64,000 bases of DNA from the IMG/VR virus record IMGVR_UViG_3300027749_000101, positions 1 to 64,000 of that record; one strand, written 5' to 3'. This DNA comes from a virus. The first letter of the stretch is position 1; the number at the start of each line of letters is the position of its first letter. Shown here in pieces: positions 4,881 through 37,951 of this stretch. Made by a program: the position numbers and the translations under genes. The notes below the pieces were generated by a model that saw nothing but the letters and a program-made list of their open reading frames with translations, was not told the DNA's origin and made no database searches.

Positions 4881-4887
4881 TAAAAAA

Positions 4888-4895
4888 TATTTATG
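4888..4895 (-). promoter_or_regulatory. late-promoter-like octamer CATAAATA
   Basis: The minus strand reads CATAAATA (T4 late consensus TATAAATA), ending seven bases before the ATG of the sulfotransferase-like gene. No Shine-Dalgarno lies at normal distance. By T4 geometry transcription would start at or next to the start codon. The octamer overlaps the ATG of the divergent SGNH gene. Confidence 0.4.
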
Positions 4896-5603: not shown

Positions 5604-6510
5604 CATCAATCTCGCGTGTCATTATGCCTTGGTTGTGCCAGTTAGATCTGTAGTGCTTCTTGAAAAATTCACTTTGTTCTGCTTCCAACACAATCATAGG
5701 TAGGCCTAGCTGTGTGTACAAGTCTTCTGCCAAGCGTCCGGCCAGCAGCCTAGGCTCTGACGTTTCGACTGTTTGCCACAGTTCAGCCAGTGCTTCAAAG
5801 TTCTGCACTAGAGTGTGGTCCCAGGCAGTAAGCATGGTCATGTATGTGCCTTGGCGTGCGCCGGCTATGGCCCAGTATCCGTGTTCAGCATCAGCACCCA
5901 CATTGTGCCAAATGGTTAGATGATCCAAGTTGCGTTGATGCACACGGTCTTGAAACTCTGCTGTGGTGGGTTTGCGGCCACGGTCCAAGCACATTTTGAC
6001 ACCTTCGCGGAAGCCTGCACGCCAAGCATGGAATGGGGATTGATTGGGGTATGTGGTTGAGTAGCAGTCATACATGGGCCAGTACAAGGGATCAAAACAA
6101 AATTCTACTTGTGTTTCTGCTGTGCCGTCTGTGGCTTCGTGTGTGCGCATGTTCTGCACAAAGCTCTTGGTCCATGAACTCAAGCCACCATTGCCGTACA
6201 TCAGTCCATTGACATGATTACGAGCCCGCCACCGGAACACAGCACTCTCATATTCTTTGCCAGGAAAAACAAGTGTTTGATTAAAGAACGCCGGATCGGG
6301 GAGATTGTCGCCATCGATGAGAATGAATCTATCCGTACTACTCGCGTGGGCTGCCGCTTTGTGAGCCGCATCGCTCCCCAGAATACCGTCCACCCTTCGT
6401 GCCCAAGGAACCATATTCCTAATCTTAATCCAAAACTCTTCTCGTTGTGGTTCATCATATGTTAAGTATATGCAGTCCAAGTCTGCTATGTCAATTTGAT
6501 TCAAGGCCAT
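5578..6510 (-). CDS. GT-A-type glycosyltransferase-like protein
   Basis: 310 residues. An acidic DGD motif (D66-G-D68, in LIDGDN) after a hydrophobic strand is typical of the metal/nucleotide-sugar site of GT-A glycosyltransferases, which move a sugar from a nucleotide sugar to an acceptor. The N-terminal LDCIYLTYDEP is placed like the first strand of such folds. No membrane segment. It is the last gene of a leftward cluster that holds two more GT-A-like proteins, and overlaps the preceding small gene by 20 bases and the convergent SGNH gene by 26. Acceptor and donor cannot be told. Confidence 0.65.
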   Translation of the reverse strand: MALNQIDIADLDCIYLTYDEPQREEFWIKIRNMVPWARRVDGILGSDAAHKAAAHASSTDRFILIDGDNLPDPAFFNQTLVFPGKEYESAVFRWRARNHVNGLMYGNGGLSSWTKSFVQNMRTHEATDGTAETQVEFCFDPLYWPMYDCYSTTYPNQSPFHAWRAGFREGVKMCLDRGRKPTTAEFQDRVHQRNLDHLTIWHNVGADAEHGYWAIAGARQGTYMTMLTAWDHTLVQNFEALAELWQTVETSEPRLLAGRLAEDLYTQLGLPMIVLEAEQSEFFKKHYRSNWHNQGIMTREIDVIRKQEGW

Positions 6511-11568: not shown

Positions 11569-11576
11569 TATTTATA
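11569..11576 (-). promoter_or_regulatory. T4-type late promoter TATAAATA
   Basis: Exact T4 late octamer on the minus strand, 29 bases before the ATG of the 596-residue fibre gene and overlapping the stop codon of the gene before it. Spacing leaves room for a start site, leader and AAGG ribosome site. Confidence 0.65.
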
Positions 11577-12195
11577 CAGCATTTATGTTGCTCAGCGTCT
11601 GTATGCGCAGGGTGTAATCAATTTGAATCTGGCGGTTCAAGCTCTTTTGTACTGGATGGAAAATCACATGAGTGATCAATCGCAGATTGGTTGAGCTGCC
11701 ATTCCAGGACTTCAATCCCAGTTCGTCAAATACATATTCACCGTTGAAATTGGTAGAATTATCAAACGCTTGTTGTGTGGGCGGTTCGCCATAATCTAAT
11801 AAACAAGTCACAAGAATATCTGTATAAACAGTGCCTGCTGTATGAATCACAGACATGTAGTTGGTGTTAGGGTCGCTATCAGCTGCTGAATTATCATCAA
11901 CTACTTTGGCATAAGTTTCATTATAAAGTCCAGCATTTTGTCCCACTGTGTTTGGGGGCAAATACGTGATTACGCCTGTGGGGTCTACTGAACTGCCACC
12001 ATTGCCAAATGCCATTGAATAGATAATTCCCAATCTAGATCCGTTTGAGTCCAATCTATTGCTTAAACTTTGAGCCATTGCAATTGATATATTTTCATAG
12101 TGAATTGCATTTTTCTTGTCTACTAGCACTTCACCTGTGTTGGGATCATGTATCTTTACAAATCCTTGAATCTGAGCTAGTCCAGGAGTAATCAT
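11572..12195 (-). CDS. virion structural protein (baseplate/fibre region), unknown role
   Basis: 207 residues. The N-terminal IQGFVKIHDPNTGEVLVDK looks like a beta-rich domain and shares the pattern V-(K/R)-I-x-D-P-x-T-x-E-V with the 52-residue protein just upstream. The middle contains FGNGGSSVDPTG and the C-terminus ends in alternating polar/hydrophobic strands. No catalytic motif. It is coupled to the upstream small gene by an ATGA overlap and lies between the giant structural gene and the fibre gene, so a tail-tip or fibre-attachment role is plausible. Assignment rests on context. Confidence 0.6.
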   Translation of the reverse strand: MITPGLAQIQGFVKIHDPNTGEVLVDKKNAIHYENISIAMAQSLSNRLDSNGSRLGIIYSMAFGNGGSSVDPTGVITYLPPNTVGQNAGLYNETYAKVVDDNSAADSDPNTNYMSVIHTAGTVYTDILVTCLLDYGEPPTQQAFDNSTNFNGEYVFDELGLKSWNGSSTNLRLITHVIFHPVQKSLNRQIQIDYTLRIQTLSNINAV

Positions 12196-12368: not shown

Positions 12369-15300
12369 TTATAATCCACGTAAAAACCTTGCGGCAGTTG
12401 TTTCGGTCAGTTGCAGAGGTCGACCATTGCTGGGAGTGTTGACACCTGGCGCATACCATGTTACCCCTCTATGCTGTAGAATAACCACTTCAACACCTGC
12501 ACCTGGTGCCGACAAATCATTGGCAGTGAGGAATTGCACAGCCAATGGATCATAATCAGTTTGTTGATAGTAGTTGCTGGCCAAACTTGTGCCTGCTACA
12601 CCTGTGCCTGACCCAATGCCTGTAGCTGTGAATACCACACCCGGTAATGGATAAACATCGCTTGCTAATCCAATAGTATGCCAGTTGGTGTTGCCAACAC
12701 TTGCAATAGTATAAGTTTGGCCAACTACAAACTGTCCAGCATAATAGCCTACTCTAGCGCGATTGCCGCCCACATAAACTTCAATACTGTTGATTTCAAA
12801 CGAACTGTCAGCTAAATCAAACTGAATGGTCGGGGCATAGAATATTGTAGTAGACCCATCACCAACAGCAGTATCACTCACAATGTAGTTTTGAAACTGT
12901 TGCGGTTGTCTATTGCCGATGCCCATGTCATACACTTGAGCAGCAACTGCGTGCGTGGTTGCAGCAGTGCCGGCAGTGCCACGTTGTAGGCCACTAATTG
13001 AATTTGTGCCAAGATCTCTCACACGGTATAAGATACGCTCACCATCAATTGTGACCACACCAAAAATACCAGCGCTCAAGTTTGGTTGGCTGAGTGCCAA
13101 AGCACTTGTGACATATATGATGTCCGCAGTTGCAGAAACTTCTTGAGCCACTGTGGTTGTAGTGGCCGGGGTAATGCGGAATGTAGTTTGCACTTCCCGC
13201 ATGTCTTGGAACAATCTAAATGCCATTGCAGCAGGCACAATGCTTTGAGTAAATTCATTTACCGCCAGAACTTGTGTTGGGCCAATAGTACCACTACCCA
13301 ATATCAAATATTGTCCTTGAACTGCATAATCTACTCCAGGGTACAGTCTCTCGCCATCTAACGTTGCCCACAATCTGTTGGCCGATAATCCTTCCCGGCC
13401 CAAATCAAAGTTATTGGCAGGGATAGAAATACCAAGACTAAAATCAAAACTTCCGGCAGTGTTGTTGAAATTGCTGGTGGAAAGAGCTCTTGTTGTAATA
13501 GTTCCTGTTGCGGTACCATTTCCTTGAACAGCAGTTCCTGTTCCTATACCAGTTCCTGTTGCATTTGCAGTAAATGTTGTATTAAAAGTATTACTTGCTG
13601 CTCCTAATAACGTCCAGTCGGTAGTGCCCAGGTACTTGATTGTATATGATCTTCCAGACACTAATCCGCTGGCAGCAACTGTGCCACTTCCGGTTGCAAC
13701 AAATACAGTTCCTGGATTATTGTTGGCAGCTCCTAAAGCAACAAAGTTAGTGTTTCCAGCAGTTAAAATAGTGTAACTATTGCCTACTATAAATTGTCCA
13801 GATGGGTATTCTCCAGTATAAGTGCTGGTATCGTCTACAAATAATGGATCATAATTAATAGTATCATACGGCTCAACAAGTGTGAGACCAGTAGTGACTG
13901 GACCCACAAACACCAAAGTCAATGGATCTTGCTGTGATGTATCGTTCCAACTGGTAATTGCAATTTGATCACCTAGATTTAATAACGGTGTTATTAACAA
14001 TCGATTAGGTGATCCTAACACAACTGTGTATTGTGCAATAAGGTTAACTGATATTAAAATTTGTGCACCATCTGCTGGCGGAGTAAAGAACACAACCTGA
14101 CGGCCCGGAGTGTTGCTACCATTCCAATTGGTGACATAATAGTTGCCAATTGTGCTACCAAAATTTTGCACTTGTAAAACATTGTTTACCCAAACTTGAA
14201 TATTGTTAAATGCATTAATAGATGATTGCGGATAGTTACCACGTTGCGGCAATCCAAAGCTGCTACTAGTCCCGTCACCAGTCCATTCAATACCTTCTGG
14301 TGGTTGTAGGCGTCTGCCATTGATAGTGACCACTAGGTTGGCCACATTGGTACCTTGCATACTGTTTTCAAGGTTAATGCTGCTGGTCAATGTGTCAGAC
14401 TGAGTGGCAGTATGATACTGTGTTACGGCTGTGCTCCAACTGTGTTGAGGATTTTCAAATCCCATGGCAGTAATAGAAATGCCATCACCTGCACTATATG
14501 GTGCATCATTGCCAATGAATCGATTCCAATTAATGCTAGTGGTTCCAACAGAGATGTCTGGATTTGATGTACAAACCCATCTTGTTGCAGCATTGGTTGT
14601 GCCTGCTGTGACCAAGGTGATTGCACTGGGTATTTCTGCAGGAGCATCAAAATCAATTGCTCTGGTCAATATCCAATACACTGAATTGTTACCAACTCTG
14701 GTAACAGTATAGATGCCATTGAATGCTGCGCTTTGCGTGGTATTATTAACATACGTACCTGTTTCATTTTTAACAAGTACGCGGTCACCAACGGATAACG
14801 TAGCGCCATCAATGGTCAGTGCAGAATAGTCATCGTATGCATTGTAACCTGTTAACGTTGCGCCAACACCGTTAGATCCGTTGTTGTATACATAACCAAA
14901 CGATCCAAACAAAGATGTTGTGGTTGCATACTTTACATTGGCCATTGGATATGGGAATGTAACTGTAGATTGTAATTTTGGAACAAATTCTACCCAGAAT
15001 AGTGGATTATCTATTGCAGTTCCAACTGGCACTGTTTGCAGTGCTCGATAATACAAAGTATTGTTTTTAACTACAGTTTGGGCAGCATAAGAATTTTCGT
15101 AAGTCCAAGGCACACTGACCGCATACGACGTCCAGGTTGCACCAGATACATTTACACCGTTTACAAACAATACCAATTCATATATTTCACTGGCATTTAC
15201 AGGAATTATTACAGAATTTCCTGTGTCAGATCCACCGTAGTTACCGCGGAACAACTGATTGCCTCCGCCCATTTCATAAGCAGTAATACTAATTATGTCA

Positions 15301-18300
15301 CCAGTGTTAATACCGCCACCAGAAACTGCTGTTATTGTCTGCGCCTGCCAATCCACAACATAGTCTATATCTGGTGTGAGATCACTATTTGTATTTTCAT
15401 TAGACACTTCAATGTTTACAGGATATTGTACCAAATCCCCCCAGTATAGTGAACGATTGTCATACACATAATTATATGTGCCTATACCAAATCCATGGCC
15501 TTGTCCAGTCCAGTCTGCACCTGGTCGAGTGTAAACGCGGAAATCTAGTGTGTCATATTCTGATCCATTCACTAACTCTTCTGGTGCATGTCCTTCGTAA
15601 GGTCCAATGAATTCTCCACCGTCAACATTGATATCTGTAGGACGTACGCCAAGGTACTGATCAGTAAAACTGCTGGCGTAGGTGGCATCTATCAGTTCTG
15701 GCACATCTGCTACCATGGTACCAGTAGCAGTGGTCAAAGTGAATGGTAACCCGTCAGGTGCCAGAGTAATTGTAAAATGTGTGGTACTGACAATACTGCA
15801 AATGTAATAAACTGTGCCAGCCACAATACCACCAAACACAGTTCCATAGAATCTGATTGGGTCATTCACTGTCAGTCGAGCTGTTTGCACACATGAGATT
15901 TCATTGGTTGTGGCATTGGTAGCTGTACACACTAATGTAGGACTTGCTGGTGAACTACCCAAGAAATAATCACCCCAAACTTGCACACCTGGATAGCTGG
16001 TGCCATCAACCAGCAGATTTAGATCTAATCCAAGTTCGTTGACTCCTGGAACATAAAATCCCATGGTACGGTTGACACCACCCAATGTAGCTGCATCTAT
16101 CACTATCCAATCTTCAAGATTAAATGTCGGTCCGACCACGGCGCTGCTGCCGTCTGCGCTGCTGGCTTGCCATACACGATCATCATAACGAACCAGTGTG
16201 CCATTTTCGTATGTGCCATTTTCACTCCAGGTCAGCACAGATGTTTGGTACTGATAACGGTCATATTTGAGCACTGTACGGAAACTGCGCACGAGTCCAT
16301 TGGCCATTTGAGGATACGCAAAAGCGCCAGTTCCGTTGCCACCATCAAATACTATGCTTGGTGTTACACGATAGCCTGAGCCTCCATTGATTAACGTTAT
16401 AGATACAATATTACCCAATGAGTTGAGAACTGCCACAGCTTCTGCCCCAGACCCAGTATCTCCTTCTGCAGGCACAATTAACACTGTGGGTGCAATAGTA
16501 TATCCTGTGCCTTGATTGGTTACTGTGATTGAATCTACATGTAACAGATAATTGTCAAACCATTGACTATATGGCCAAGTTGGCCACAAAGTGCTATTAG
16601 GTGCAGTATCACTAAGTGTGTTGAACTGCTGAGTGGTAGCATGTTGGTACGGCAATAGAATTGGACTTACAAACTGTGGCAAAGTTAGATTGGTATCGTA
16701 ATAAGCTGGCACATCAAAGTCCGTCAAGCTGCCTTGATAGCTGTCAGCACCATCATAAGTCAGATTGAATTCACGAACTTGTACATGATAGGGCTTAACT
16801 TCTTGAATGTAATCGCTCACAAAGTCTTGATTGTCACGAATGTAATTCTGATACGGTAACAAATTTCTAACTTTGTGTTGTACATCAATCAAGCTGGTTT
16901 TAATTAACCATTCTGGTGCTAACAATTCGCTAAGGATAAAATTAAACATTAGTGTGAGTGACCGATTTCTTTCAATCTTCAATTCATCAATGAATAATTC
17001 TTCATTTATAGCTTGTATAATCTTGCGAGTTTCGATCACTGGCTCTTGATCATAATATTGTGCATCAAACACCTCTACGTCAAATCCAAATCTGCCTAAC
17101 GCATAATCGTAAATTACCGCAGAAATTTCAATAGTACCGTCCTCAAGACCCACACGGTCCCACCCAGTATCAGTGCGCAGGTAAATTTCAAATTTACCTT
17201 GTGCATTGGCAGTTACCTTAACGCTAGAACCAATAGCTACTGAGAGTGTGCTCAAACTGGCATAATTTGGTACTTCTGCCACAATAGTTGAGCTGGAATT
17301 GTATCCTGGCTGGTACCAGTTTACATAACTCCAGTATTGACGTGTATCGTAATTTTGCACGCGAGTCAATACTATTTCTCTTACTGCTGGATCATTGGTA
17401 ACTTGTACTTCATTAATGGTCCATAATCCACGATTCAAACTGTTGGTAACCACAAGATATTTGTAACCCAATGGTACAGCATAGATATCTTGGAATCCCA
17501 ATATTTCAAGGTTGGCCACACGCAAGTTCCAATCACCACTGTTTGCACTTGGCTCTGGCTCTGCACTGTTTAATAATACAAAACTTCTAATTTCTGTTAT
17601 GGGGTATAATGCAAACACATCATTGGCACGTTGGATATAATTTTTTAATGCCAAGAAGCGGTCCACAAACATGCTCTGACGTGGTCGAAACTGCACGCCA
17701 TACCGTTGAGCATAATTAAGATTTGGATCTGGAACTTTGTTTCCAAATGTGTCCACTCCGCAGAAACTATCTTGCAGTTTACGATACAAATTACCACTCA
17801 AAAAAGAATCAGCTTGCCCCTGTGCAATTAACTCGTATTCAGTGTGTACATTGGCATTTGTTATGGACTGATCAAACTCCACACTGATAATAGTGTCTGA
17901 TGCCACAATGTATTCGAGTGCATTATAGATTGCAATGGTGCTAGAATTAATTGGCGCAATATAACTGATTCCGCTGGCTCTAGGCTCTTGAATGTAAGAA
18001 GCAACTGTGGCCACACTTAGAGTTTTGCCCAACTGTGATGCAGTTTCTGTTATTCCACGAATCCAATAGTAATATTCAGTAACAAATGTTCCAGACTGAT
18101 TTAACCTAGTGCTTACAACATAACTGATAGTGCTGTACGGAGTACCAACTCCATTGTAATTTGCAGGAGGCACTGAGCTGGATATCCATTGATACACATC
18201 AACTCTACTGCCCGGGAACACCTGTCCCCAGCGACGACTAGCATAAGTTGGATTGTCTTGATTGGGATCAATAAATCTAACTGTGCTGATATCCCACCAA

Positions 18301-21300
18301 ACTTCACCAAGATGTGTGGTAGCCCATGTGTCACCACGATTGTTGATTGGACCAACATTATAAGCAGCAGGATCAACAGCACTGATGTAGTCAATATTTT
18401 CTTGCGCGGCGCCCAATACTTTTCCTTGTAGTGGATCAAAGAAATCAAAAAAGTGACTCTTGGCAGAGGTAATTCTGTCATACATGTACACACTAGATAA
18501 CAATCGTATGTCAACAACTGGTGGTTGAATGGCAATTGGTTCCCAGGCCAGGCGTCTTGTGGGATTTTCAAAAATATACGCTGCGCCAAATTCACTAAAC
18601 GTGCTATCTTCAAAGTCTTCACCAGGTGCTGTGGCAACAAGTACTCCAGAATTGTAACTTACTGCATAGCCAAATTGATCCAAGTATGATACTGCATTGG
18701 TTTCAACCTGTTGTCCAAATATAAATTTACCTGGGTTTGCCACGCTGAGACTGTTGCTAGGCAGATAGTCATAAGTGTAAACCACACCAGACTGCACCAC
18801 TGGGCTGAAGAATGTGGTAGAATTGCCATCAAATGTAGTACCTGCTACTTCTGTTACTATGTTGTAATCAAATACCATTGGCAAGTACAAACTGCCCCTA
18901 GGTGATCCAACCACAAGATTCAGCGCAGTGTCATTTACAGCTACCGAGTAACCAAATTGCGAAAACTCCAGTGGTCGTGGACTGGCAATAGTTTGGGTAT
19001 ATACAAACGTGGCAAATCCAAGTGCAGAAAACACTGTGCCGACTGAGCCTGGCGCAACTTGTAATTTATTACCTTCTGGTGCGGCATCTGTATTGGTGAC
19101 AAAAATCGTCAAGTAGCCGGTTGAAGAAACCACTGCTGTGGCATTAGGAGCACCTGAGTTGGTTCCTGCTTCGCCGCCATTGATGGCAGCAGCAAGTCCT
19201 GCGATGTTGTTGTTTGGGCTGGCTGGAACTGCAATGTCAACATTGTTTACTCGTAATGTCTGTCCAGCAGTCAAACTAGGATTGGCGATAGTAGAAGTAA
19301 TTGTGCCATAGCTTCTTGCTTTATTCACACTGCGTTCAACCACGCCACCTTTCCAAACAATGCTAGAATCTTGTGGCGCGCCCACGTACAGGCTACAGTT
19401 ATATGGACACAAGTCTAAACTTTGACCATAGTTTGTGTATTCAGCCACGGTGTTTTCTGTGATCAATTGTTGTTGAACAAACTGATTGATTTCAATTTCA
19501 ATCACGTCGCCCACATACAACTCTTTGTTGATGGTAATGTTGTTACCGCTTACTGAGAATGTGTTATCAGCACCAACAATGCTGTCTGTTTGATTGGTCA
19601 AAAATACATTGTTGACCAGCACGCTGACTGGAGCAGTAACTGTACCTAGCACAGTGTATGTGTTAGAGCTGTCATCCTGACGAATGAATTTTTGCACGTT
19701 TCTGTCAATTATATACACCGAGCCAGCTTCAAGCAGTCCATTTACTGTGGCACTAGAACAACCAATTATAACTTGACGTCCGTCAGTGCTGCACTGCACA
19801 CTATTGCCAAATCTCGCACCGGCCACAACTGCCACAGTTGGAGTAATAGTTCCAGCAAGCTCATAATAAAACTGAGATGTCACTACAATAGATGCACCAG
19901 CACTTGGAACATTATAAAATGTTATTGTGGTACCAGCGTATGTGTAATCAATATTTGGACGTTGTAACACATTGTCAACAGTAACTGAGAACGAGTAAAT
20001 GTTATTTGATCTAGCTGTAAACAGCCATTGCGATAGTGCATATGAGGCACCACTTGCAGTGAATGTTTTGACGTATTTTCTTGAAATTGCAACCACATCA
20101 CCAGCAGCTGGAGGTGTTGCAAATGTCACTGTGCTGTAACTGCCATTCACAGTGTATTCTGAAATCGTACGAGATGCAACTGTTTGTGAGATATTTATAG
20201 TGTAAGTACCAGCACCACCAGACCCAGATCCAAACGCAACAATATACGTTCCAGCAGCCACACCTGTACCAGTAATATAAGAGCCAACTACCAGGGCACC
20301 TGATGCTACACTGGAGACTGTCAGTTGATACCCGCTGATTGATCCAGTTGTTACTGCCAACACACGAAGATTATTTGTTACAACCAGTTGATTTAAATTG
20401 TTTATCTGTACAGTATTGCTAATGTCAGCGGTATTGCTGGTGCCATTTGCAATGTATTGTAAAACCTGGTCTTCCCATTGTACTTGACCGTATGCATAAA
20501 CTCTGTTGAGTCCAGGAGCACCAACATACAACCAGCGTTCGTCAAGACTCATGGCCACACTATAACCAAATTCTCCAGCACCCGGAGTAGTTGTTGTTGT
20601 TGTGCCTGGTAATGTCAACAATTGTGACTGATACCAAGGACTGGTATTGGCAGCTCCAGCCGAAGGATCGCGCCATAGCACCACAGCATATCCGTTGTTA
20701 GCTGGATACCCGGCTGCTGCCGGGCCAAGGCTTGCGCTTGCACCGCCAATAGCAAATGTTTGATTACCAGCATCCACAGCATTGCCATATCCACGTAGTC
20801 CTGTGGTAGTTAATGTGAGAACAGTGTCTTGCCCGGCAATAGGACTGATTGGTACATATTGGTCGCCTGCATTTCTTACATATAGATAGATACCACCTTT
20901 GGCAGTACCTGAACCAAATCCATAGCGCGGACTACCAACAAATAATGCAGATCGGTTTGTGGCTTGTGCTACCGATGCACCATACTGTTCTGTGGCATCA
21001 AGTAATACTGGAGCCAATATTGCTCGGTCAGTGAACGGATTTTGTTTTTGTAATACTTCCCATAAGCCACTACCATTGTCATCCACCCAAACTTTTGCAC
21101 CTGGTAAAAATTGTTGAGCATATGGCAAATTCAATACATCACTGGCTTGTGCCACTCGCATGGTTTTCAAAGTAAAACCAATGCCAACTCCATCAACCAC
21201 TGTGCGATCACCCACAAGATCCAGTGCAATGTTTACTGTGGTTAAGTTTGGCACACTTAATACTGTATAAACTCCATTGACTTCTGCGTCAAAAAATCGT

Positions 21301-24300
21301 ATGATCAATCGGTCACCAGTTGTCAATCCATGTTGGCCACTGAATATGACTCTGCTGGTACCATTGAGATTGTCACAAACGTGTTGAATCTGCCCTGGCA
21401 CAGCTTCTGCTCGATAAATTCCCCAATCGTAATTGTTTACTTTTGCAACCCAAAAAGTTGTTCCAACTATGATAGAATTAATATTGGCATTAATACTTGC
21501 AGGATCGTCTAGATTGAATACTGTGATATCAGCATCATCGATGTTGACGTATCCTGCACTAGGCAAAGAAATATCTGTTGGTAGTGTAGTTGTAGTTGGC
21601 AACAGTGCGGTGGTAGTTAATGGAAAACTACTTTTCCACACATCTCCAAGAAAAATTTGTTGGTCAGCAGTGCTCGGCTCATTTGGCACCACAACTTGCA
21701 CCAAACTGGGATTGCTTGACAGCAACGCACGATTTAGCCGTAAATCAAAGAAACTGCGATTGGCATTGGCTCCATATACTCCATTTTGAATCGCCCAATT
21801 TTCATAAACTTGGTATTCAGCAACTTCTTTGTTGAATTTGGCTTGGCCAAATAAATCAACACTGTTTTTAGTTCCCTTGGTTCTTAGGAATTCTCGGTAG
21901 ATGTTGAGCTGACTGACATCGTCAAGATTTAATGCAGCCATGTATTGTCTTGGTCTAAAACCAATCAGTCCATAACTTAACAAATCATTGTCTTGAATCA
22001 AGTTTGCTGAATTAATGTCATAGCTGTTGCTGAGTTGATCAGCTTTGTTTGCTAGGTTGGCCAACAATCCCTGTTCAATAAATGTGTAATCGCTTTGATT
22101 CCAATCATTATAATTGAACTTGGTGCTGGGTTGCACAATTGTGGCTGCACTCCAGTATGCACCTTTGTGAGTTACTATTTCGCCCTTGGCATAGGTTTTT
22201 AATCCAGTCCAAGCAGGGATGTTATTTTGATTTAGGATAAAGCCCTGTGCATTTACACTTCCATCCCACTCTGTGGTAGTGGTTCCAGAAATATACAGTC
22301 GACTTTGTCTAGCACCTGTGATAGGTTCAAAGATCAAGTCACCAAATAAACTGGCGTTATCCAACACAATCATGCTTTCAAAGCTGGTGTAACGCATGTC
22401 AATGAAACTTAGACTTTGATTGTTCAAGGGTTGAACAGTAAAGTTGTTATCAACTCTAACAATGTTGAGATCTCGTACAGGAAAGTCTCTACGATTTTGA
22501 TCTAAAATAACATGTTCAGCCGTTTGAGATGTAATTGTATCTACCACCGCTTGTTCTTTAAAAACTGACAATCCAATGGCCAAAGGATTTAAATTTATTA
22601 GGGAGCCGTTGCCCCACCCTTGTTGGCTCCAGTATATGAACTCATAAACCATTTGTGACCAAGTCATCAAATAACCATTGGTTTGATTGGTAAATTGGAA
22701 GCCTTGTGATTCTAGGAATTTTCCGTAGCTTAACAAGAAGTTGGCCACAGCTGATTCAGTTGTGAATACAAATCCATAGGGAATCTGAGCAATAGTGTCT
22801 GTGTAGTTGGCAGGCACTTTGATAGTTTTACCGGCCACACTGTATGTTTCAAATTGCCCAACTGGGATACTTGTAAATGTATTGAAGAATGGTCTTGCAG
22901 TGCTGTAACCAAACACAGCCCATCCACCATCCGTCACTTGAATCACAACTGAACTGTAGATCAGTCTGTCAAATGGTTGATTTTTGTACACCAACAGTTG
23001 ATAACTTTCTGGCGGAATCTGCAGGGAAGTGTTGGTGGATTTGGGACTGGATTTTTCAGTATAAATTTTCAAGTACTGTTTGTCTGAGAATGACGCCATT
23101 CTGTAGCACAGCCGCACATCTAGATTTTGCAGATCTTTTTCTAGCGCCACAGTACTATTGGTACCTGTTATGCGATTGTAATCCACAATCCAGTTTATGT
23201 AACTGGCTTTGCTTGTGCCATCACCATACACTTGCACGCCAGTGGCATCCAGTCTGTAACGATTGTTGTAAAGATACTGATCAAATTCTGTACTGTACTT
23301 GTACAAGTCTCTGTCAGCAAACAGCGCAAAGAATTTTGCTGGTCGAGTCAATGCCAGCAAGCGCATGGCAGCAAATGGATAGTCGCTTGAATTCCACCAC
23401 GAAGCTTCTACTGGCCCTCCGTCGCCGGGTGCCCAACTTTTCTGGAATGTTTGTGTGTTGTAATTACCTACCACTGATTCTAATGGTGCTAGTAATATAC
23501 CAGCAGAGTCAGTTGGGAGCACAGATGTCAGTTTGGGTCTAGCATAAGCTGATAATATGTATGCTCCCACTGGATCTCTCACAAGACCAAGTTCTAAATC
23601 GTCCCACAAGTTCATGTTGTCAGACGTGTACGGTCCGGAACCGTAGGTTATGTCCCACCAGTCTGGTTTGACGGTGAAGCCAATCATTTCCCATGGAGTC
23701 AATTCTGGCTGCTGAGTGTCGTAAAAATAACGATAGATACCACGCCAAGCACCCAATAAGTTACTGCCATTGAGTACATTGGTTGAAGTGCTATAGTTAT
23801 AGGTAAATGGATTGCTGGCATTGTAATTTTGTGTGGTGTAATCCAACTTGTTCCATCCAACATAACTTAAAAAGTTTGTTTCTAAAATGCTGTTGATTTC
23901 AGCAGAACTATAACCAGTGTTTCTAAACTGCCCTGGCAACACATCAACAATGTCAAGCGGCACAGGATTGCCATCCAGTTTGATGTTGTTGTAAATTCTA
24001 GTTTCAAATTCTAACAGCACTTCGTCACGTATGTCACCAAAGATAGGAGTTTGACTGCCATCATGTCCCAGTATGACCAATTGCTCACCTGAACTAGTTT
24101 TCACTGGCTCAATAACTGGACGCCACACAGGATACAATCCCATCTTGCTAGGAGTGTTAGGCACGTAGGTACCATAAGTGGCACTGTATTCTTGAATGGT
24201 AATAGTGTCGCCAATGACCAATTCAATTAGAATGTCAATACGCGGACCATTGGTGGCCACTGTATATTCTAAATCTCTGGTCAAAATTCTATCATTCACA

Positions 24301-27300
24301 TACACATTCATGCCAAGGTAATTGGCCGATGTGTAATTGTAAACTTGCACCGTGTCAAAAACCTGACTGGTAGTGTAACTTACTGTATATGTTGATGTAG
24401 TGAATACTGGAGTGGCCGGCAGCATGTCACTCCAATAGAATGGATTGCTTGCTGTGCGGCCTAGTGTGATTTCAGCTATCACCAAATCAAGAACTTGCGA
24501 TGCAGTTTGATACTGTATGGTTTGTCTGGTCACAGCTTCCAGCATTTGATTTTTGTACTTTTGGTATTCTCTGCTGTTGTATTCCAGCGCACCAAAAATG
24601 TTGTACTGCTGAGACCGCATGAAGTATCCAGCAAGAGTCAGTGGCGAGCTTTGTTGTAAAATCACTTGTCCGTAAGGTATAATGTCACCAAGGTCTCTAG
24701 TGTTATTTGCACCATTTATCGAGCCAGAAAATGTGGTTAAATTTTGACAGATGCTGTTGTAGTGAGTGCGCAATGTGCCCAATGTAAAATTTGGGCTGTC
24801 AGCATTAAGTGCATTGTTATTGAGATTTAAAGGGACTTGATAAAACGCCACCTGGCTCACTTGGTCGCTGAGTACTTCAACTTCAATTACATCCCCTACC
24901 ACATGTACAGTGCTGAATGTAATGGTTGTAGTATTAGCAGTGATTGCAACTGTGTATGTGCCTGGATCTTGAAATATTGATCCCACAAATACTTTTACAC
25001 TGGGCACAGTAGTTACTGCGTTTGATTGCACAGCAACATCCAGTTGCAACGGTTGCAAATTATACACAAATTTAAACTGCTGGCGCATCAACGTTGGTAC
25101 TGCCGCAGTTTGCCAGCCAATCAATCTTTCATATGCAGTTCTTGACGCATACTCATAAACAAATCCCAAACTGATTGGTGCTGTGGTGCTGGTATTGTTG
25201 ATCACATACACAAATGTATCAGAATACAAATTGTTATCAAACACAATATCACCAACGTTGGTCAAATTGAGATACTTGAGCGCCAACTGCAACACTGGGT
25301 CCGCAGTGCCTGTACCAGTTGCGTAACTAAACAATTTTGTACCCACAAATGTGGAACTTGGATATGTTATACGGTCAGCCAAACTTATACCATTGGCATC
25401 ATATATGTCAAACAATGGCGCTTGTTGCACTGAGGTTTTTTGCTGTGCTTCTAACCAGTTTGTCCCATCATACCAATAGGTAATACCAACTTGTGATTCA
25501 CTCAAACATGTGACAGTTTGATCAACAAATATTTCACCGTCTGTTGCTTCAACCAAATTTATAATTGGCTGCGCAATCAGTGGTGGCACAGTATCTGGCG
25601 TAACAAAATTCACCACATACAGTTTTCTGCGCACAGCAAGATCGGCATCTGCTGCAAATATCACACGACTGCCATTGACAAATGTATAACCGTTAACCGA
25701 GTACCCAGTGCTGCCTTCAACATTGCTGAACGCATCAGTTTCAGTGAAGTCAATTGTATCTACTGGTTGTTTGGCTTCTGTCCCCATGTTATACAATCTA
25801 ATACCACCACGGAATTGTATAATTGGTCGCTTGCCTTTAAAATTGTTGTCTATTGTGACTGGAGTATCGTTGTATACACCTGTGGCATTGAGTACATCAA
25901 TGTGGAACCAACAATTGCTACGACTCCATGCATTCAAATCAGGACTGTCGCGATTGATTGTGAGATAATCAATATCGTGATTGTATTGTTCTGGGGTGAT
26001 ATAATTTGCTACAGGCAATAGTTCAATTGCTGTGCCAACACCGCTTACATAATACTGTGGATTTTGACTGGTGGTAGCAGTCATGGTTCCATTTGCAGAA
26101 GTCAATGTCACTGCTGGACCATTTATAGTTACACTTACTTTAAATTGGCTACTGCTAAACACAGTGTGAACATAGTAGGTAACGCCAGTGGTCACTCCAC
26201 CAAATGTATTGCCAGTGAAAACAATCTGTTGCCCTACAGTCATTCCCACTGTGGATTCAGTTGTGATAAGGTTGATACCAGCCGCAGTGTTTATACAAAC
26301 AAATGCATTGGATCTAGTGGCATAGCTGGCAGGTGATACGTCACCTAGAAACTGAACCTTCAATCCGTTAGTAAACGTCACACCATTTGGACTGGTGTAG
26401 TTTTTCTTGCCCAGTATATCCTGAATGTATAATGTACTGATGCTGGCTTGTTCAATCAATCGTATGGTGCCAAAAATTTCAGGGTCAGTACCATCTTGGT
26501 AATACAAAGTATCTAGCTTGGCTGTAAGCTGAGGCATCTCAACAATGTATCCAGATTGATTTTTGTACCATTGTGTGCTAGAATATTCAGTACCATAACG
26601 TATGGTCCATCTTTCTAAGTTGGCTATGTTTAGAATGCTGCCCAATGATAGATAGGTATAAGCACCAACAACAACATAACTTATACGCCATACGCTGTAG
26701 TAATTGGTGGCAGGATTGCCTGCGCTGTTGGCAAACACTAATGTTCTTGTGTTGAGGTCAGTAATGCCATCAATGCCACCATAGGTAGCTATGAATTGAT
26801 CCAATCTTGCACCGTCAATGTTTTCAAAAAACAAATCAGTAACAAGATCAACAGCTCCAATACTGGTAAGACCGTAGAAAAAATCTTGTGCTGTTTTTTG
26901 TGGCACATTAAAATTAATTACACCAAGATCAATGCCATTGTCTGTAACACCATAAATGGATCTGGAAGAGATGTTTGGCGTTGTGGGGGTTCTTCCATTG
27001 ACTCCTGGAGCAGTTTGAATCCAAAATCCTGGACCATCCCCAGGTTCAGCATTGACTATACTGATAGTTCCACGCATGAGACTTTGATTCTCACACGAGT
27101 AATACAGTGTGTCTGGTGCGTCTTGTGGCACAGTAAACGTCACTGTACCTGTGATTGATCCATTGCGAGAGACACCTGAATTGTACTGATCACCTGTGCC
27201 TGTGGTCGGAGCAGTTTTGATCCAGAATGGAAAATCGCCTTGCACAAACAAATTAAATGTATATGTGTTGCCCCGAATCAAGGTGATGGTGGCATTGGGT

Positions 27301-27944
27301 TCGTTGTCAATATTGAAACTGGTAACGTTGGTACGTGTTACTCGATAGTTGACTGTTTCTTTATTGTTTTGTGCTACCTGGAATGTGTAGTTTCCGCCTC
27401 GCACCAAATTCAATGTAGGATTGTTTCCGGTCACGCCCGAAAATGTATAAACACCATTTTCTCTGTTTACAATAAAATTTTGACTCAGCGCAGCTCCTGG
27501 CGATTGCACAGTGACTACATCAGGACCGTTTGGAACCCAATAGTACTGGCTGAAGTTTACAAATGTGTCAAAGTCAATGAAAGGATCAAGACAATAGTAG
27601 TCGCTGGTGTACAATCGGCTAGGTTGTGTTGATGGGCTACCTTGATACACCAACGTATCAGTTATACCTGGATAGGTAATGGCATCTACTATTTTGCTAT
27701 TGTCAGTGGGACTGATGCTGATAACTCCAGGTTCAAGCTGGTAGTCAGCACGAGTTTTTGTTGGCTCGATCACATACTTGTCATTGGGATTTACACCAGG
27801 GCCAACAGTACGGCCAATATAACCTTGAGTCTTTTTAAACTTTGGTTCTTGAATCAGCTGATCCAATGTAGCAGCCAGAAACTGCTTGTTGGCGTCAGTC
27901 TGAAAAATCTCAGGAAGAAAATCTACACTGCGTACTCGTGCCAT
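12369..27944 (-). CDS. giant virion structural protein, about 5190 residues
   Basis: One uninterrupted gene of 15.6 kb; predicted mass about 0.56 MDa. The N-terminus (FLPEIFQT, then a DQL segment, then [11 protein letters not shown]) resembles the start of long structural proteins behind gp6 in aquatic T4-like phages. Approximate regions: 175-300 cupredoxin-like strands ending in [12 protein letters not shown]; 2330-3140 six FG-GAP-like repeats (FGYSVA…LYVGAPG); 3810-3875 two GxGY-x-x-x-P repeats; 4375-4410 a [18 protein letters not shown] module; 4710-5090 three copies of a G-x-(S/T)-Y-T-I…G-x-T-(D/N) module. The ATG at 27944 shares its A with the gp6 stop (TGATG); a TTG one codon earlier is open. 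It occupies the place where T4 has gp7. A baseplate or fibre role is inferred. Confidence 0.8.
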
Positions 27945-30900
27945 CAAATTACTCCGCTACCTGGTGCAGTACGCAAGTTGGTACTGGTCAATGCATCAAT
28001 TACAATAATGTTGTCAATGGTAGCGCCGTTAACAAATATTTCATTGGGTTCTGCTCTTACTTCGTACATGTCGCCAAAGTATTTTTGTGTGTCTAGTGGC
28101 ACTAGTACCACCGAACTAATTATGGTTCCAAGATATCTGTGCAAGTATGCTGCCAGTTCTGAAAAATAGAATGTGTCTCCAAAATTCCATTTATCAATAC
28201 TGAAGTATTCATTCATAGCTGCCAACACAGAACTTTGGATTTCACTCACACTGGCTGTGGAATTTTGCGCACGGATAACTTTGATTGTGGCTTGTAATGT
28301 TTTGGCTGCTTTGGGACCAAACAGTGGTTTGAACACTACAGAATTTAACACAATGTTGTCGCTGATCATTTTGTATTCATTTAGACCTTGATACTGTGTA
28401 CTAAGTTCATCAATGGTTGGCATATCAGGTTCAGACACTGTGCCAGTGGTATCTGTAATCCAATTCTGATAGGCAGTATAATATGATTGCGTAACCACGT
28501 ACAAGTCAATGATGTTGGTAGTACCTGGATCGATTCTGTTGGTAAGTGGTGAGTTGTGGCGATATTGGAAAAACAACGCCTGGCGACCTGTTCTAGCAAT
28601 CCATTCACCTTGGGCTGCAGGTGTTATAACTCTCACACCTGCGGTATTAATTGTCAATGTATAGAACAATTCATCACTGTAAGCATAAAAAACCTGACCG
28701 GGAGAATATTGAAATTTTATCAATTCAAGACTATCATATGTGGGGTAATCTGAATTTACTACACCTGGTTCTACCAGCAAATATCTTTGCAGATTGTCAA
28801 AGTCAACAGTGCGTTGCAAAAACACCAATTTGAGGTTAGGAGTAACTGTTGGGGCAACAATCTCATCAAAAAAGTCTGGATTGTCTGGCACACCATCGCT
28901 GTCACTATCTCTATAGCTGATCAATACTTGAAAGTCATCAACATATCCGTCTGACTCTACTGGTTGGCCAATAATTGTGGTATAGATATCGCCAGGCAAG
29001 GGTGACGAGCTGTCGGGTTTGGTGTTTACTGCCAACACATTGATAAAATCTCTAATTGTAGTACCTGTGCGACTGTCATAAATCTTTTGATTGCCATAAA
29101 AGAAAAATCTTGTTTGCAACACCGATCCAAAGTAATAGGCAAGTCCACGGAATGTAATGGTGTACCGATTGTTCACTACTACAAACTGCACCAACCAACT
29201 GGCATCTAAATTGTTTCCTGATGTGTTGCCTGCATAAGTTTGACTCCAAGTTGCATCAGCATTTAGATTGGTGCTTGTAATCAAATACCAAGTGCCAGCG
29301 GTGCCAGTAATAGAACCAGTATTGTCATATCCAAGACCAAAATTTCTATACAACACAATTTGTTGTGTCATTTGTTCTCTTAGAGACAATACTAAATCGG
29401 TCAAAAATACAGGGATAATAGTGTCAACAACTGCACCAGTGGGCACAAAATTATTGAGTGCCACTGGACCCTCGCCACTGGTTAAATTACCAGTGCCGTT
29501 GTTGCTGCCATCGCCCACTATAGCAATGGGGCTTGCCCAAATTTCCAAATGATCTTCTGGTCTAGTTGGTAGTCCTTGTTTTAATCTATTGTTTGCATCA
29601 AAATAATACGGCTGACCATTAATCACTGGAGGAATAAATCTAATCAAACTTTTTTGCACCACATACTTGAACGCAGTGCTGCTAAATGTGGGACCAACCA
29701 AAATTGGTGCGCCTAATGCATTTACAAAATATCCTGTGGTTTCGTTGGCTATTGTTGTGCTTTGATTCCAAGTGCTTAGTGCTGTTTCGCCAGTGTTTAC
29801 AGTTATTCTCGGAAAGTTAGCATAGTAAAATTGATTGAAGGTGGCACCAACAATAGCAGGCTGCACTTGATTGATAATAAGATCAGAAATTTCATTGCGA
29901 TTGATCCAACTGAACAGAATGGTAGGAAGAATATTATTTTTCCAAATTCCTCCATCGCTGGAAAATGTATTGGTGGATGAGTACTTGCCTGTGTTGTCCA
30001 CAAGATCAAGATATCGACTGGTACCAATTGAAGCACGATTCAATGCCTTGCTCTTGATGATTGAATTGTAAAGAGTAAACGGGAACAAGTTATAATCTTC
30101 GCCGTTGACCATGCGATTCTGTGTGTAGTATCTAGCAGGAGCACGTTGTTTGATAGCATCGATGCTTTCACGACTTTGAGCATTGCTAACAGGCTGTGTA
30201 ATACCACAGGTGAATGTGATGGTTTGCAAATTGCCATTGCGATCAACATAGCTGATTGGCAGCACCACATTTTGCATTTCGGCAGGATTGATAATGTATT
30301 GCAAGCCGTTTGAAGCACGAACATACGCACGGAAAATGCCCACTGGAATCTCTGAAAACACTCCATCACCAAATACCATGGTGATCTGATCATTGGTTCT
30401 GCTGGTTACAGAAAAAATTGGTCTTAGCATTGCAGTTTGTTCTGCAGCCGCTGAATAAATGTTTTCAGTATAAGTCCACTCTCGATTGATACTGCCCACA
30501 TTGTCCAACTGGAACAACCAACGGTCTTCGTTGTTGACGCCATCAATGTTTATGTTTACTGTGCGATTGGCAATGCGTTCGGCCAAATTGAAGTCTTGGT
30601 TTTGCAAGGTGCCTTGTTTGAAAAAGAAAAAGAAACCGTTATTGGCCGATTGGTAACCTAGCTGGTCATTGCGATACAACACATTGAATGTGGCATTGGG
30701 TCTGGGACTGGGTTCATAAATATAGTCTCGGCCGGCTGTGGTCGAAGTGGTGGCTTCAAACGGCATGTTCACACCATCCACTGTGGCAGTGTAAGGAATC
30801 ACCGGCAAGAATCCAGGCACTAGATTGATACCATATTCACTGGTATCTACGCCCAAAATGGTTTGACGGTTTGACGGACGGCCAATTTTTTGGCTGCTGA

Positions 30901-31393
30901 CCAGTGATGAGTTAACAATAGCATTCCATTGTTCTAACCAGTCAAAGTTTGTGGGATCAGCCCAATTAACTGTGACATTGGCCAGATTCACACCGTTATA
31001 ATCCACAACATTTTCTGTTGTGGTCACGCTAAATGCTTTGAGCAAGCCCTGTGCGGCTGTGTTGCGTTTGGCTGTATAGCTCACAAGATTGGCCAGACGT
31101 GTGACTGAATCTCTGCGTTCTGCTGTGTCTAAATAGTTTTCTCTTGTGTTTAAATCTGTACGGAATGCCAATGCTTGGCCCATGAACGCAATCACATCCA
31201 GCAAGGCAATGTATTCAGATGACTCAATGTAGTCATTGAATGTTTCTGGATAGTACAAACGCAGATAATCAGTAAAACTCTTACGTAGAGTTTCAAAGTC
31301 GTAGCTTTGGAAGTCTGCTTCGCGATAAGTTTGATAGATCTGTTTCCAATCTTCTACACCAAATATCGCAGTTTGTCTAGTGGTTTTTGCCAT
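27944..31393 (-). CDS. 6: baseplate wedge protein gp6
   Basis: 1149 residues, against about 660 for T4 gp6. The N-terminal part has the features of gp6-like wedge proteins: [18 protein letters not shown], a [20 protein letters not shown] segment and [17 protein letters not shown] later [13 protein letters not shown] is typical of the gp6/gpJ baseplate family. gp6 forms the ring that joins wedges around the hub. Placement right after gp25 agrees with T4-like gene order. The extra length lies in the C-terminal half. Preceded by a CATAAATA late octamer 29 bases upstream; the stop is coupled to the giant gene (TGATG). Confidence 0.9.
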
Positions 31394-31449: not shown

Positions 31450-31824
31450 TTATACGTAACTGGCTGCACGGCTGACTTGATTGAAGAACACATTCAGTAT
31501 TTCGGCATTAACGCCGCCTACAGTTTGTATCTGCAATTCAATCAACATGCCATTTTCTTGAGGATATACATTGATGTTGCTGATGAATACTCTAGGATCA
31601 CCACCAGCCACTCGTTGCACTTCATTGATAATACCTTGTTGAACTGCCTCAACTTGATTTTCAAACAAGTAACTCCATAATATGGTACCATATCCAGGAC
31701 GTCCAGGCAATTGACCTTGGCGAATATTAAATGCATTCAATAGATCACGTTTGATCAATTCAAAATCTACAAGTGTAAATTTTTTGTATTGATTCTGTGT
31801 GTTAAAGCCAACAAAGGTAGTCAT
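31450..31824 (-). CDS. 25: baseplate wedge protein gp25
   Basis: 124 residues, close to T4 gp25 (about 132). The gp25-like features are LVDFELIKRDLLNAFNIRQGQ, PGRPGYGTILW and a C-terminal strand region (ISNINVYPQENGMLIELQI). gp25 is the small wedge component that nucleates sheath assembly on the baseplate and is conserved in contractile injection systems. It directly precedes gp6, as in T4-like phages. GATAAATA lies five bases before its ATG and overlaps the stop of the gene before. Confidence 0.92.
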   Translation of the reverse strand: MTTFVGFNTQNQYKKFTLVDFELIKRDLLNAFNIRQGQLPGRPGYGTILWSYLFENQVEAVQQGIINEVQRVAGGDPRVFISNINVYPQENGMLIELQIQTVGGVNAEILNVFFNQVSRAASYV

Positions 31825-31837: not shown

Positions 31838-33236
31838 CGCCCATATTCTGGTTATTATTAGGAGACGGATCAGGTCTTGGATAGCCTATTGCAGTCAAAC
31901 TTGGAAGACCACGGCGCAGTCTTTCTGCATTGATATTGTCCCATACTACTTGGTCACTACCAGTGTAAATTAACTTGTCGTCGGGAGTCTTAGAATACAA
32001 ACTGCTTGCAAAATTTGCTGGCAAAATACTAGGTACTTTGTCATTGCCCACAATTCGCTTGGCGGCAGCGTCAAGCGTGTCTGTGTTCACAGTATCAACA
32101 GCAGCCACAGGCGTGTATTCTTGAAGCATTGAAGGATCTATTTTGGTTTGAGTTAGATTTACAGCAAATGCACCATTTACGGCAGCGGCATCAAATTTAG
32201 ATTTGACATCAGCCGGAAGCCCTGGAGTGTTTTTTGCCCAATTTAGTGTGTCGGGCACACTCTTGGCAGCATTGGTAGCCAGGCCACTCAGTGCTTGAGG
32301 TGTTAGTTTGTCTGTGGGCACACCCAGTGATTTTAAGTCTGCCACTCCGGAAGTCATCAAGCCTTGCTGAATTTTGTTTTGCAATCCTTCATTGCCCAAC
32401 AAGCCATCAAGACTTTTTACACCATCTCTGCCGGTCCATACTGTGGGACTTTTTAACACGCTGGTAAGATCACTGTTGCCTTGTGCCAAGAATGTGGCAG
32501 CAGTTCCTGGTTTGACCAGTCCCCATCGTTCAAGCTGGCTGGCATCAAGTCCAAATTTGCCTGCGCCTGCTGCGTTGCTGATTGTGTCTGCGTTCTGGCC
32601 CACCAACTTGCTGGCTTGCGCCAGCGTTCCAGTTACGTCAGGTAAATTCATACTGCCAAGCGCAGCCAGTGCAGGTCCTTGTTTGGCAAAGTCTGCTGCA
32701 TTGATTCCCTCAGTAGGAGTTCCTTTGATCAGGCCAGATATTGTACCAACTGCGGTGCTGGCCAGGCTGCCCACTCTTGATGCAGCACCGGTCAATGCAC
32801 CCGATATAGCTGATGACGAAGGCAATGAAAATCCAGTGCTAGCACCTGACAATGCTGCGCTGATAGACGCAGTAGCACCACTAGCACCAGTGGTCAATGA
32901 ATTAAATGCAGCCGCACCACCTTGCAGTGCGCTGGCTACTTGTGTACCTGCACCTTGGCCAAGTGTGCCTATGCTGGCTGTGAGACTGTTTAAATTTGTT
33001 CCAGCAGGTAACCTACTAGATAATGATGCTAATCCTTGTGTTAATTGACTTTGTGCAGAGGCCAAGCCGGCAGCAGCTTGTGTAGCAGGACTTAATACAT
33101 CACCAACTCTGAATCCTGTGAGTCCACCGCTGGCTGTTTGTTGATCAAACACTGCCTTGGCTTGTTCAAATGTAGCACCGGTAGGTGCGTTGATTTCAAA
33201 CTTTTGCCCGTTGAATTCAAAATTAAATGTACTCAT
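31833..33236 (-). CDS. Ala/Gly/Ser-rich structural protein of baseplate cluster
   Basis: 467 residues. A short N-terminal domain (FNFEFNGQKFEINAPTGATFEQAKAVFDQQ) resembles the small leading domain seen in some phage baseplate proteins. Then follows about 150 residues of Ala/Gly/Ser/Leu-rich helical sequence, and a more complex C-terminal half ending in an Asn/Pro-rich tail. No enzymatic motif. The ATG overlaps the gp5 stop (ATGA) and the gene ends next to gp25, so it belongs to the baseplate operon. The role cannot be assigned; a long helical hub or spike accessory protein is one option. Confidence 0.6.
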   Translation of the reverse strand: MSTFNFEFNGQKFEINAPTGATFEQAKAVFDQQTASGGLTGFRVGDVLSPATQAAAGLASAQSQLTQGLASLSSRLPAGTNLNSLTASIGTLGQGAGTQVASALQGGAAAFNSLTTGASGATASISAALSGASTGFSLPSSSAISGALTGAASRVGSLASTAVGTISGLIKGTPTEGINAADFAKQGPALAALGSMNLPDVTGTLAQASKLVGQNADTISNAAGAGKFGLDASQLERWGLVKPGTAATFLAQGNSDLTSVLKSPTVWTGRDGVKSLDGLLGNEGLQNKIQQGLMTSGVADLKSLGVPTDKLTPQALSGLATNAAKSVPDTLNWAKNTPGLPADVKSKFDAAAVNGAFAVNLTQTKIDPSMLQEYTPVAAVDTVNTDTLDAAAKRIVGNDKVPSILPANFASSLYSKTPDDKLIYTGSDQVVWDNINAERLRRGLPSLTAIGYPRPDPSPNNNQNMGG

Positions 33237-34747
33237 GCTTTTCTCGTAAATTCAAATCCAGCTGGCACCGGCACAGCGCCTGGGTTAGGTGGCGGCTGTC
33301 CTGCTTCTAATGGAATTTCAATGTCTACACCTTTATTGTGGTAAGGATATGGTTCGTGTGTGGGCGCTCGAGTAACAATACTTTCAAGACCGTCTGTTTC
33401 AACTGCCCAACCGGTGGCACTACTGAACGTAGTGTCGTCTAATTTGGTCACAGTCAAGTTGTTAGGAGCAGATACCGCACTGGCAGCAGGACCGTTGAGA
33501 TCAATACCGCCAGCTTCAAATACCAATGCGCTGCCTCCTGCCCAACTGCCAGTGGCACTTTGTAAAGCCAAACTGCCATCTGCTTTTATGCCAATATAAC
33601 TTTTGCTATACAGTTTTAAATTTTCTTGTGTTATCACAGTAAAATCTGCACCAGCTTGCAACGTAATATCTTCTACAGCTTTGGCTTTGATACTGCCGCC
33701 AGCATACATGTTGATGTCTCTATCAGCATGTAAATTAATATCACCGCGTGTGCGCAAGTTGATACTGTTTGTGGCATACACATCTAGTGTGCCTTGAGCG
33801 CCAAGTTCAAACCAAGCTAGGCCGTTAGCATGAGTGATGTAGAAAAAGTCTCCGCTATCACTCATTGTAATTTGATGTCCAGCTGTGGTTCTAAATCGTA
33901 TCAATCTAGTATTGCCGTCAGTGTCGCCATCGTCCATCACAATACTGTGTCCGCCCACACGACCAATTACGTTAAGGTCCTGCGGTTTTAGTTCTCCAGC
34001 TTGAACTTTTTTCTGTATTTCTCCAAACTTCATGCCACCTTGATACACCGCAGGGCCAGGTGTGCTAACACCAAACACAGCACTGGGACTTTCTCTTTGG
34101 CTTGAACTTGATATGGGTCCGCGTTGAGGATCATTTATCAAGCCTTGACGGAACATGGCTTCCGCTACCACACTCTGCACAGGCTTGGGTGCATCAAAAA
34201 ATCTAGCGTTTTCTTCAAGTGCAAGATTGTTGGTGTTGATTTCAACCACTGGCAATTGTGATGCTAATCGAAAGTATGCCGCTTGATTTGCATTTTGTGC
34301 TATGACTTGAGTGGCAACTGGCGCAGCACCAATGGCAGGAACCATGTGTCCAATGCTTTGATCCGGTGCTGTACCAATGTAAAACCCTTGACTGCGATCT
34401 CCATTCACAAACACACACAACACTGTTATGCCTACATCTGGTGGGGTAAACCACATGCCGTAACTGTTGGAGTTGCCGTCTATGTAGGATCCAACACCAG
34501 TCTTGGCAGGATTGTGTGGAGTTGATCCAAAGAACTGTGGCATGTAGCTGACTGTGATCCATTTTGATGGTTCATTTTCACCACCATTAGAAAATGCATC
34601 AATGTAAACTTGTATGCGACCCGAACGTATTGAATCTGTTGTGTTTTTTACAATGCCGTAGAATGGGCCAAACTCCGCAGGCACACCGCCACGATCAAAC
34701 TTGTAGTTTGTGGGACGACCTCTACTGCGTTGTACATCTGTTGCCAT
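33233..34747 (-). CDS. 5: baseplate hub/spike protein gp5, no lysozyme domain
   Basis: 504 residues. The N-terminal 130 residues form a gp5/VgrG-type OB-fold region (FYGIVKNTTDSIRSGRIQVYI, then MWFTPPDVGITVLCVFVNGD). The C-terminal half shows the repeating strands of a VgrG/gp5-like beta-helix (INLRTRGDINLHADRDINMY, then SIKAKAVEDITLQAGA). T4 gp5 (about 575 residues) carries a lysozyme between these parts; here the linker of about 130 residues has no lysozyme motif. The protein should form the trimeric membrane-piercing spike. AAGGAT provides the ribosome site. Cell-wall cleavage may instead come from the peptidase in the tape-measure protein. Confidence 0.85.
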   Translation of the reverse strand: MATDVQRSRGRPTNYKFDRGGVPAEFGPFYGIVKNTTDSIRSGRIQVYIDAFSNGGENEPSKWITVSYMPQFFGSTPHNPAKTGVGSYIDGNSNSYGMWFTPPDVGITVLCVFVNGDRSQGFYIGTAPDQSIGHMVPAIGAAPVATQVIAQNANQAAYFRLASQLPVVEINTNNLALEENARFFDAPKPVQSVVAEAMFRQGLINDPQRGPISSSSQRESPSAVFGVSTPGPAVYQGGMKFGEIQKKVQAGELKPQDLNVIGRVGGHSIVMDDGDTDGNTRLIRFRTTAGHQITMSDSGDFFYITHANGLAWFELGAQGTLDVYATNSINLRTRGDINLHADRDINMYAGGSIKAKAVEDITLQAGADFTVITQENLKLYSKSYIGIKADGSLALQSATGSWAGGSALVFEAGGIDLNGPAASAVSAPNNLTVTKLDDTTFSSATGWAVETDGLESIVTRAPTHEPYPYHNKGVDIEIPLEAGQPPPNPGAVPVPAGFEFTRKA

Positions 34748-37648: not shown

Positions 37649-37951
37649 TTAGAACCCCAGGGTTGATCGCAATGTGGTAATCTTTGGAAGATATATTCTA
37701 GTGTCTGCTTTGAAGTCCAGGGGCGGCGCAGTGAGTGTGTTGGGATTGCGTTGATAAAACACCCACCACAAGCCAGCATCGCTATACAAGTCGTATGCCA
37801 GCAAGTCTGGACGATACTGATAGGTGACATTTATGATCCACAGCTTGTCGTCACTTTCTTTAGGAATGGGTCTGTTGACCATGACATCCAAATAAAACTG
37901 ATTGTAGCCAGTTTGAAAGTATGGGCTGGTACTGGTATAAGTTGCAGCCAT
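37649..37951 (-). CDS. 53: baseplate wedge protein gp53
   Basis: 100 residues. The diagnostic features of gp53-like wedge proteins are YQYRPDLLAYDLYSDAGLWW followed by VFYQRNPN and a final DFKADTRIYLP. T4 gp53 is about twice as long (196), but short versions are usual in aquatic T4-like phages. gp53 joins gp6, gp7 and gp25 in the wedge and carries a LysM-like fold. The ATG overlaps the stop of the 733-residue gene by one base, and the next gene follows after three bases. Confidence 0.85.
   Translation of the reverse strand: MAATYTSTSPYFQTGYNQFYLDVMVNRPIPKESDDKLWIINVTYQYRPDLLAYDLYSDAGLWWVFYQRNPNTLTAPPLDFKADTRIYLPKITTLRSTLGF

Follow-up and report, generated by a model that had tools for sequence, protein, structure and literature searches.

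What role could a protein of more than five thousand residues play when it is encoded directly behind a baseplate wedge gene, at the place where T4 has gene 7 and P2 has gene I? We addressed this question for a window of 64,000 nucleotides (positions 1 to 64,000 of the IMG/VR virus record IMGVR_UViG_3300027749_000101). The gene lies at window:12369-27944 on the minus strand, as do all features of the structural cluster described below, with its start ATG at 27944-27942 and its stop TAA at 12371-12369. It encodes 5,191 amino acids without an internal stop, with a calculated mass of 566,316 Da (566 kDa) and a pI of 4.5; in 200 mononucleotide shuffles of this 15.6 kb of DNA the longest stop-free run never exceeded 210 codons. 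This start codon and the TGA stop of the gp6-like ORF at 27944-31393 overlap (TGATG). A preliminary description of this DNA had proposed both the uninterrupted 15.6 kb gene and its coupling to gp6, and each was recovered here. To our knowledge, giant proteins of this kind are among the largest virus proteins known.

The same gene was found in another IMG/VR contig (L006/G001, 147,553 bp), within 16,001 bases that are 100% identical and include it entirely. Among the nearest 80 loci there are 44 closed homologous frames, spanning 3,731-5,337 aa, and that of the window is not the longest. A more distant set comprises 37 closed frames (3,549-4,802 aa) and two frames that leave their loci still open after at least 5,728 and at least 5,843 aa. 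When the window gene was compared with four relatives that are ~86-89% identical, dN/dS per 500 codons ranged from 0.02 to 0.18, apart from a single value of 0.27 in the short last segment. The entire giant frame is under purifying selection.

Profile searches placed the protein in a family that is already known. Its three thirds match PHROG 10938 'virion structural protein' (E=6e-142, 2e-53 and 3e-63), which PHROG lists under 'head and packaging', and tblastn detected homologues in >100 phage records, including PA5oct and its relatives, Atu_ph07, Phosso, SCTP-2, RaK2/K64-1, 121Q, CBB, GAP32 and others. Six named homologues (RaK2 ORF070, CBB_236, 121Q 582, PA5oct gp355, Atu_ph07 gp180 and SCTP-2 140) are ~20-36% identical to the window protein over long stretches of the core, and all are encoded in the baseplate cluster. 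Five of the six directly follow gp6 (PA5oct, 3,857 aa; Atu_ph07, 4,449; RaK2, 3,326; CBB, 3,340; 121Q, 3,323), while the SCTP-2 homologue (3,807 aa) neighbours a 9.3 kb unannotated gene. With 5,191 residues against 3.3-4.4 thousand, the window protein exceeds these homologues in length, its C-terminal module set is different, and it carries FG-GAP repeats that the PA5oct and RaK2 homologues largely lack. A conserved-peptide scan of IMG/VR confirmed at least 595 related loci. Queries with the PA5oct and SCTP-2 cores yielded no new loci in IMG/VR. Judged by sequence similarity, the giant protein belongs to a widespread and mostly unstudied family in large T4-like phages, with members of 3,500 to 5,800+ residues. 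The singularity implied at the outset has therefore to be given up, since the family is standard in phages of the RaK2, PA5oct and Atu_ph07 types and occurs in hundreds of environmental contigs. Such giants abound in environmental phage collections, beside the central wedge gene of the injection apparatus, but their annotation goes no further than 'virion structural protein', and our literature search found no publication that names or localises the giant protein.

Two homologues, and probably a third, have been detected in virions. PA5oct gp355 is marked ESI-MS/MS in its record, and CBB_236 was identified in CBB virions by 21 unique peptides (7.7% coverage; PMC5259590). The phAPEC6 protein gp245, with a predicted mass of 382 kDa, was found in virions with 17 peptides and is listed beside the baseplate wedge protein gp244 (PMC7247149). 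It is probably a homologue of the giant, because phage 121Q, described as the same species (PMC7247149), has its homologue beside gp6. Virion presence is known for these homologues, the window protein being known here from its gene. The giant is thus a real and striking gene, and a member of an already-known, widespread family with several sequenced, virion-detected relatives.

The gene order supports the earlier placement in the gp7 slot. On the minus strand a gp53-like baseplate wedge subunit (37649..37951, phrog_7145) is followed by a structural gene, a gp5-like hub subunit/tail lysozyme (33233..34747, phrog_13211), an unknown gene, a gp25-like baseplate wedge subunit (31450..31824, phrog_43), the gp6 baseplate wedge homologue (27944..31393; phrog_10646, E=1e-273; phrog_219, E=6e-24) and the giant. 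Directly downstream comes a conserved 207-aa protein (11572..12195, phrog_11259), with a similar ORF in relatives, and then another virion structural protein. Immediately upstream of the giant, a long ORF is present in 129/129 related loci, most with a 1-base overlap, and an aligned subset of these ORFs matched T4-like gp6 with 97.8% probability. This gp6 control worked with alignments and failed with single sequences, so single-sequence negatives were left uncounted throughout. The window gp6 has 1,149 aa, compared with 660 aa in T4, and its alignment to T4-like gp6 is limited to the first ~450 residues, which indicates that the wedge neighbour is likewise enlarged.

By blast and MAFFT comparison, the giant protein consists of a conserved core at residues 1-146, 631-2177 and 3125-3750, with other modules between and after these parts. 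The N-terminal segment (residues 1-146, 27507..27944) could be aligned in 25 diverse members, has the consensus LPxxFQTxxNxKFLxATxDQL ... GYIGR ... YQLEP and is a putative docking element. Core I (631-2177, 21414..26054) is common to PA5oct, Atu_ph07, SCTP-2 and RaK2, and includes a KGT-motif domain (1958-2084, 21693..22073) that is present in 89/90 giants; core II spans residues 3125-3750 (16695..18572). AlphaFold2 models were weak (mean pLDDT 58-62), with confidence low in the N-terminal segment and pLDDT below 50 for residues 1-140 and the KGT region. A PDB fold search with the core I model gave module-level matches only, and a viral search yielded mostly proteins of the family itself. Likewise, searches of Pfam, NCBIfam and PDB with the N-terminal and KGT alignments yielded only chance or module-level matches.

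The interleaved modules were more readily recognised. Residues 175-366 (26847..27422) form three cupredoxin-fold (YHYH-type) repeats, identified by a repeat HMM, by a match to the C-terminus of phrog_677/gp9 and by Foldseek (rusticyanin, probability 1.00). The clearest of these repeats keeps the Cys and Met of the type-1 copper motif and has lost the histidines, so that copper binding appears unlikely from its residues; a P-SSM2 tail-fibre protein retains HPFYIKT...CQYHSAM, and for this cyanophage fibre copper binding would be possible. An optional module at 549-623 (26076..26300), present in 14/39 giants, has a second copy at 4005-4079 (15708-15932). CBM5/12 (chitin-binding type 3)-like modules lie at 1911-1948 (22101..22214; Foldseek probability 1.00 to chitin-binding domains) and at 3905-3946 (16107-16232). 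FG-GAP repeats with at least six blade-like units occupy residues 2320-3126 (18567..20987; Pfam PF14312, E=5e-11, and a repeat HMM). Further towards the C-terminus lie a GxGY repeat module (3805-3876, 16317..16532) common to cyanophage giants and neck/lysozyme proteins, a C-terminal stretch of variable length (4154-4906, 13227..15485) that is missing in one relative (L052), and a C-terminal domain (4930-5007, 12924..13157) that is present in 37/39 giants and resembles one located close to the start of the cyanophage giants. Fibre-type beta domains are also interleaved. Repeat HMMs and Foldseek therefore agree with the mosaic of fibre- and adhesin-type modules that had been described at first.

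How far does the protein itself resemble gp7? The slot is the same, the gene directly following gp6 as in T4 and P2. However, T4 gp7, P2 gpI and XM1 gp17 have 176-1,167 aa in the proteins compared, against 5,191 aa, and none matches the giant directly. No slice gave a direct match to T4-like gp7 (hhalign probabilities <1% throughout), no direct profile match to P2 gpI was obtained, and PDB profile searches returned no solved baseplate protein. The proposal that residues 1-600 resemble T4 gp7 or gp10 was rejected, as neither hhalign, PDB profiles nor Foldseek produced such a match and the fold of residues 150-366 is cupredoxin-like; the N-terminal region of T4 gp7 was not found in the giant. 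Compared with the gp7/gpI core bundle, the N-terminal segment gave no signal above column shuffles either. As possible elements of a helix-turn-helix bundle with two gp6 copies, helices are predicted there at residues 6-9 and 17-31, with pLDDT <50.

The sole gp7-like signal came from the KGT domain, by way of the giant proteins of marine cyanophages. In this domain KG is invariant and reads KGT in most members; 35/35 members with the domain match PHROG 10938. Aligned to the cyanophage giants, the domain scores best precisely at their own gp7-like KGT site, with 37.7, whereas none of 293 column shuffles exceeded 24.2, at an hhalign probability of 10-24%; elsewhere in the giant, comparable scores were confined to slices with a plausibly shared fibre or repeat module. 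The cyanophage site in turn matches T4 gp7 724-756 with a score of 68.3, compared with at most 25.7 in 40 column shuffles, and a probability of 87.6%. This second match is centred on a KG[TI] motif that also occurs in P2 gpI. The two alignments are suggestive of a KGT-motif segment possibly shared with T4 gp7 and P2 gpI. Because the KGT domain reaches a probability of only 24% and a direct link to T4 gp7 or gpI was not found, we file the giant under PHROG 10938 and treat a gp7-like way of working as hypothetical.

The cyanophage proteins occupy the same slot. Behind gp6, marine cyanophages encode giants of 3,891 to 6,376 aa, of which some bear the annotation 'baseplate wedge initiator/subunit'. 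Two of them, in Syn33 (L097:11720-30850; 6,376 aa) and S-ShM2 (L183:15995-34591; 6,198 aa), exceed the window protein. The Kyanoviridae giants (Syn33_092, S-ShM2_093, P-TIM68 gp086 of 4,307 aa, and those of ACG-2014f and S-8S53) have in common with it the gene slot, the giant size and mobile modules (GxGY, fibre type, C-terminal domain), and 4/5 of those examined carry the KGT motif. In contrast, there is no overall sequence homology, and the N-terminus and core differ.

Taken together, these results suggest that the giant is probably one very long baseplate-region subunit at the T4 gp7/P2 gpI position, combining docking with built-in host-contact domains. The N-terminus, core I with its KGT-motif domain and core II would build it into the wedge beside gp6, while the cupredoxin, CBM5/12, FG-GAP and fibre-type domains interleaved with them would form a permanent, outward-reaching arm or skirt, serving surface (glycan) contact or fibre docking. 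By analogy with (gp6)2-gp7, six copies per virion would be expected. In phage XM1 the gp7 orthologue (242 aa) uses an N-terminal helical core-bundle motif to join two copies of the gp6-like gp16, and its remaining parts hold tail spikes (PMC10457771); the TssF/TssG complex of the type VI secretion system has the same 2:1 stoichiometry as XM1 (PMC6300606). A giant that fills the wedge position and brings its own host-contact or fibre-docking parts is the most economical reading. A broader evolutionary version, which we consider doubtful, is that a gp7-type wedge core was expanded by domain insertion into a single-chain baseplate arm with functions that T4 distributes over gp7, gp8, gp9, gp10 and gp11, the same expansion having arisen both in RaK2/Atu_ph07-type jumbo phages and in marine cyanophages. 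Should the gp7-slot reading prove true, these proteins would represent a 5 to 20 fold enlargement, by host-contact domains, of an established contractile-tail component, and culturable relatives such as PA5oct or Atu_ph07 make it testable.

It is also conceivable, though we regard it as unlikely, that the giant, as a virion protein, belongs to the outside of the tail (a whisker, decoration or peripheral tail fibre) and is linked to the baseplate cluster genetically only, gp7 having been lost or replaced. The predominance of fibre- and adhesin-type modules and the absence of a direct gp7 profile match would fit such a protein, as would the tail whiskers of CBB, whose composition is unassigned (PMC5259590). 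Against it stands the order gp25-gp6-giant, conserved across RaK2, Atu_ph07 and environmental phages, together with the long upstream ORF at 129/129 loci; moreover, the window ORFs that were scanned included no other recognisable gp7-like gene. For MIJ3, a phage of the PA5oct type, a spiky baseplate and fibres are described, tail whiskers going unmentioned in that portion of the account (PMC6892783).

The wedge-position reading has the giant expressed as a single chain. Alternatively, one gene could yield several mature virion proteins, either by processing of its product or by expression from internal starts, a possibility to which we assign a distinctly low probability. Peptide coverage of the homologues is low (7.6-7.7%; PMC5259590, PMC7247149) and compatible with pieces, and one relative (L076:3072-14267), the shortest of the 44 closed frames, has an in-frame stop within the homologous stretch, past which homology goes on in the same frame; mutation or sequencing error could account for this stop. 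Every other closed locus has a single ORF, constraint runs through all segments, and phAPEC6 gp245 is listed at 382 kDa, although this is a predicted mass (PMC7247149). Finally, a misassembly joining genes, which had been named as a refutation, or a fusion artefact or chance ORF, was looked for and is excluded by the identical copy in a separate contig, the dozens of contigs with homologous ORFs comparable in length and dN/dS well below 1 throughout, and no support for it was found.

Two further features of the window were observed around the structural genes. Three separate genes with radical-SAM domains flank the structural cluster (window:7-807, 1847-3244 and 46319-47329), and a 1,139-aa protein with an endolysin-like stretch is encoded directly upstream of the portal gene (window:50557-53976).
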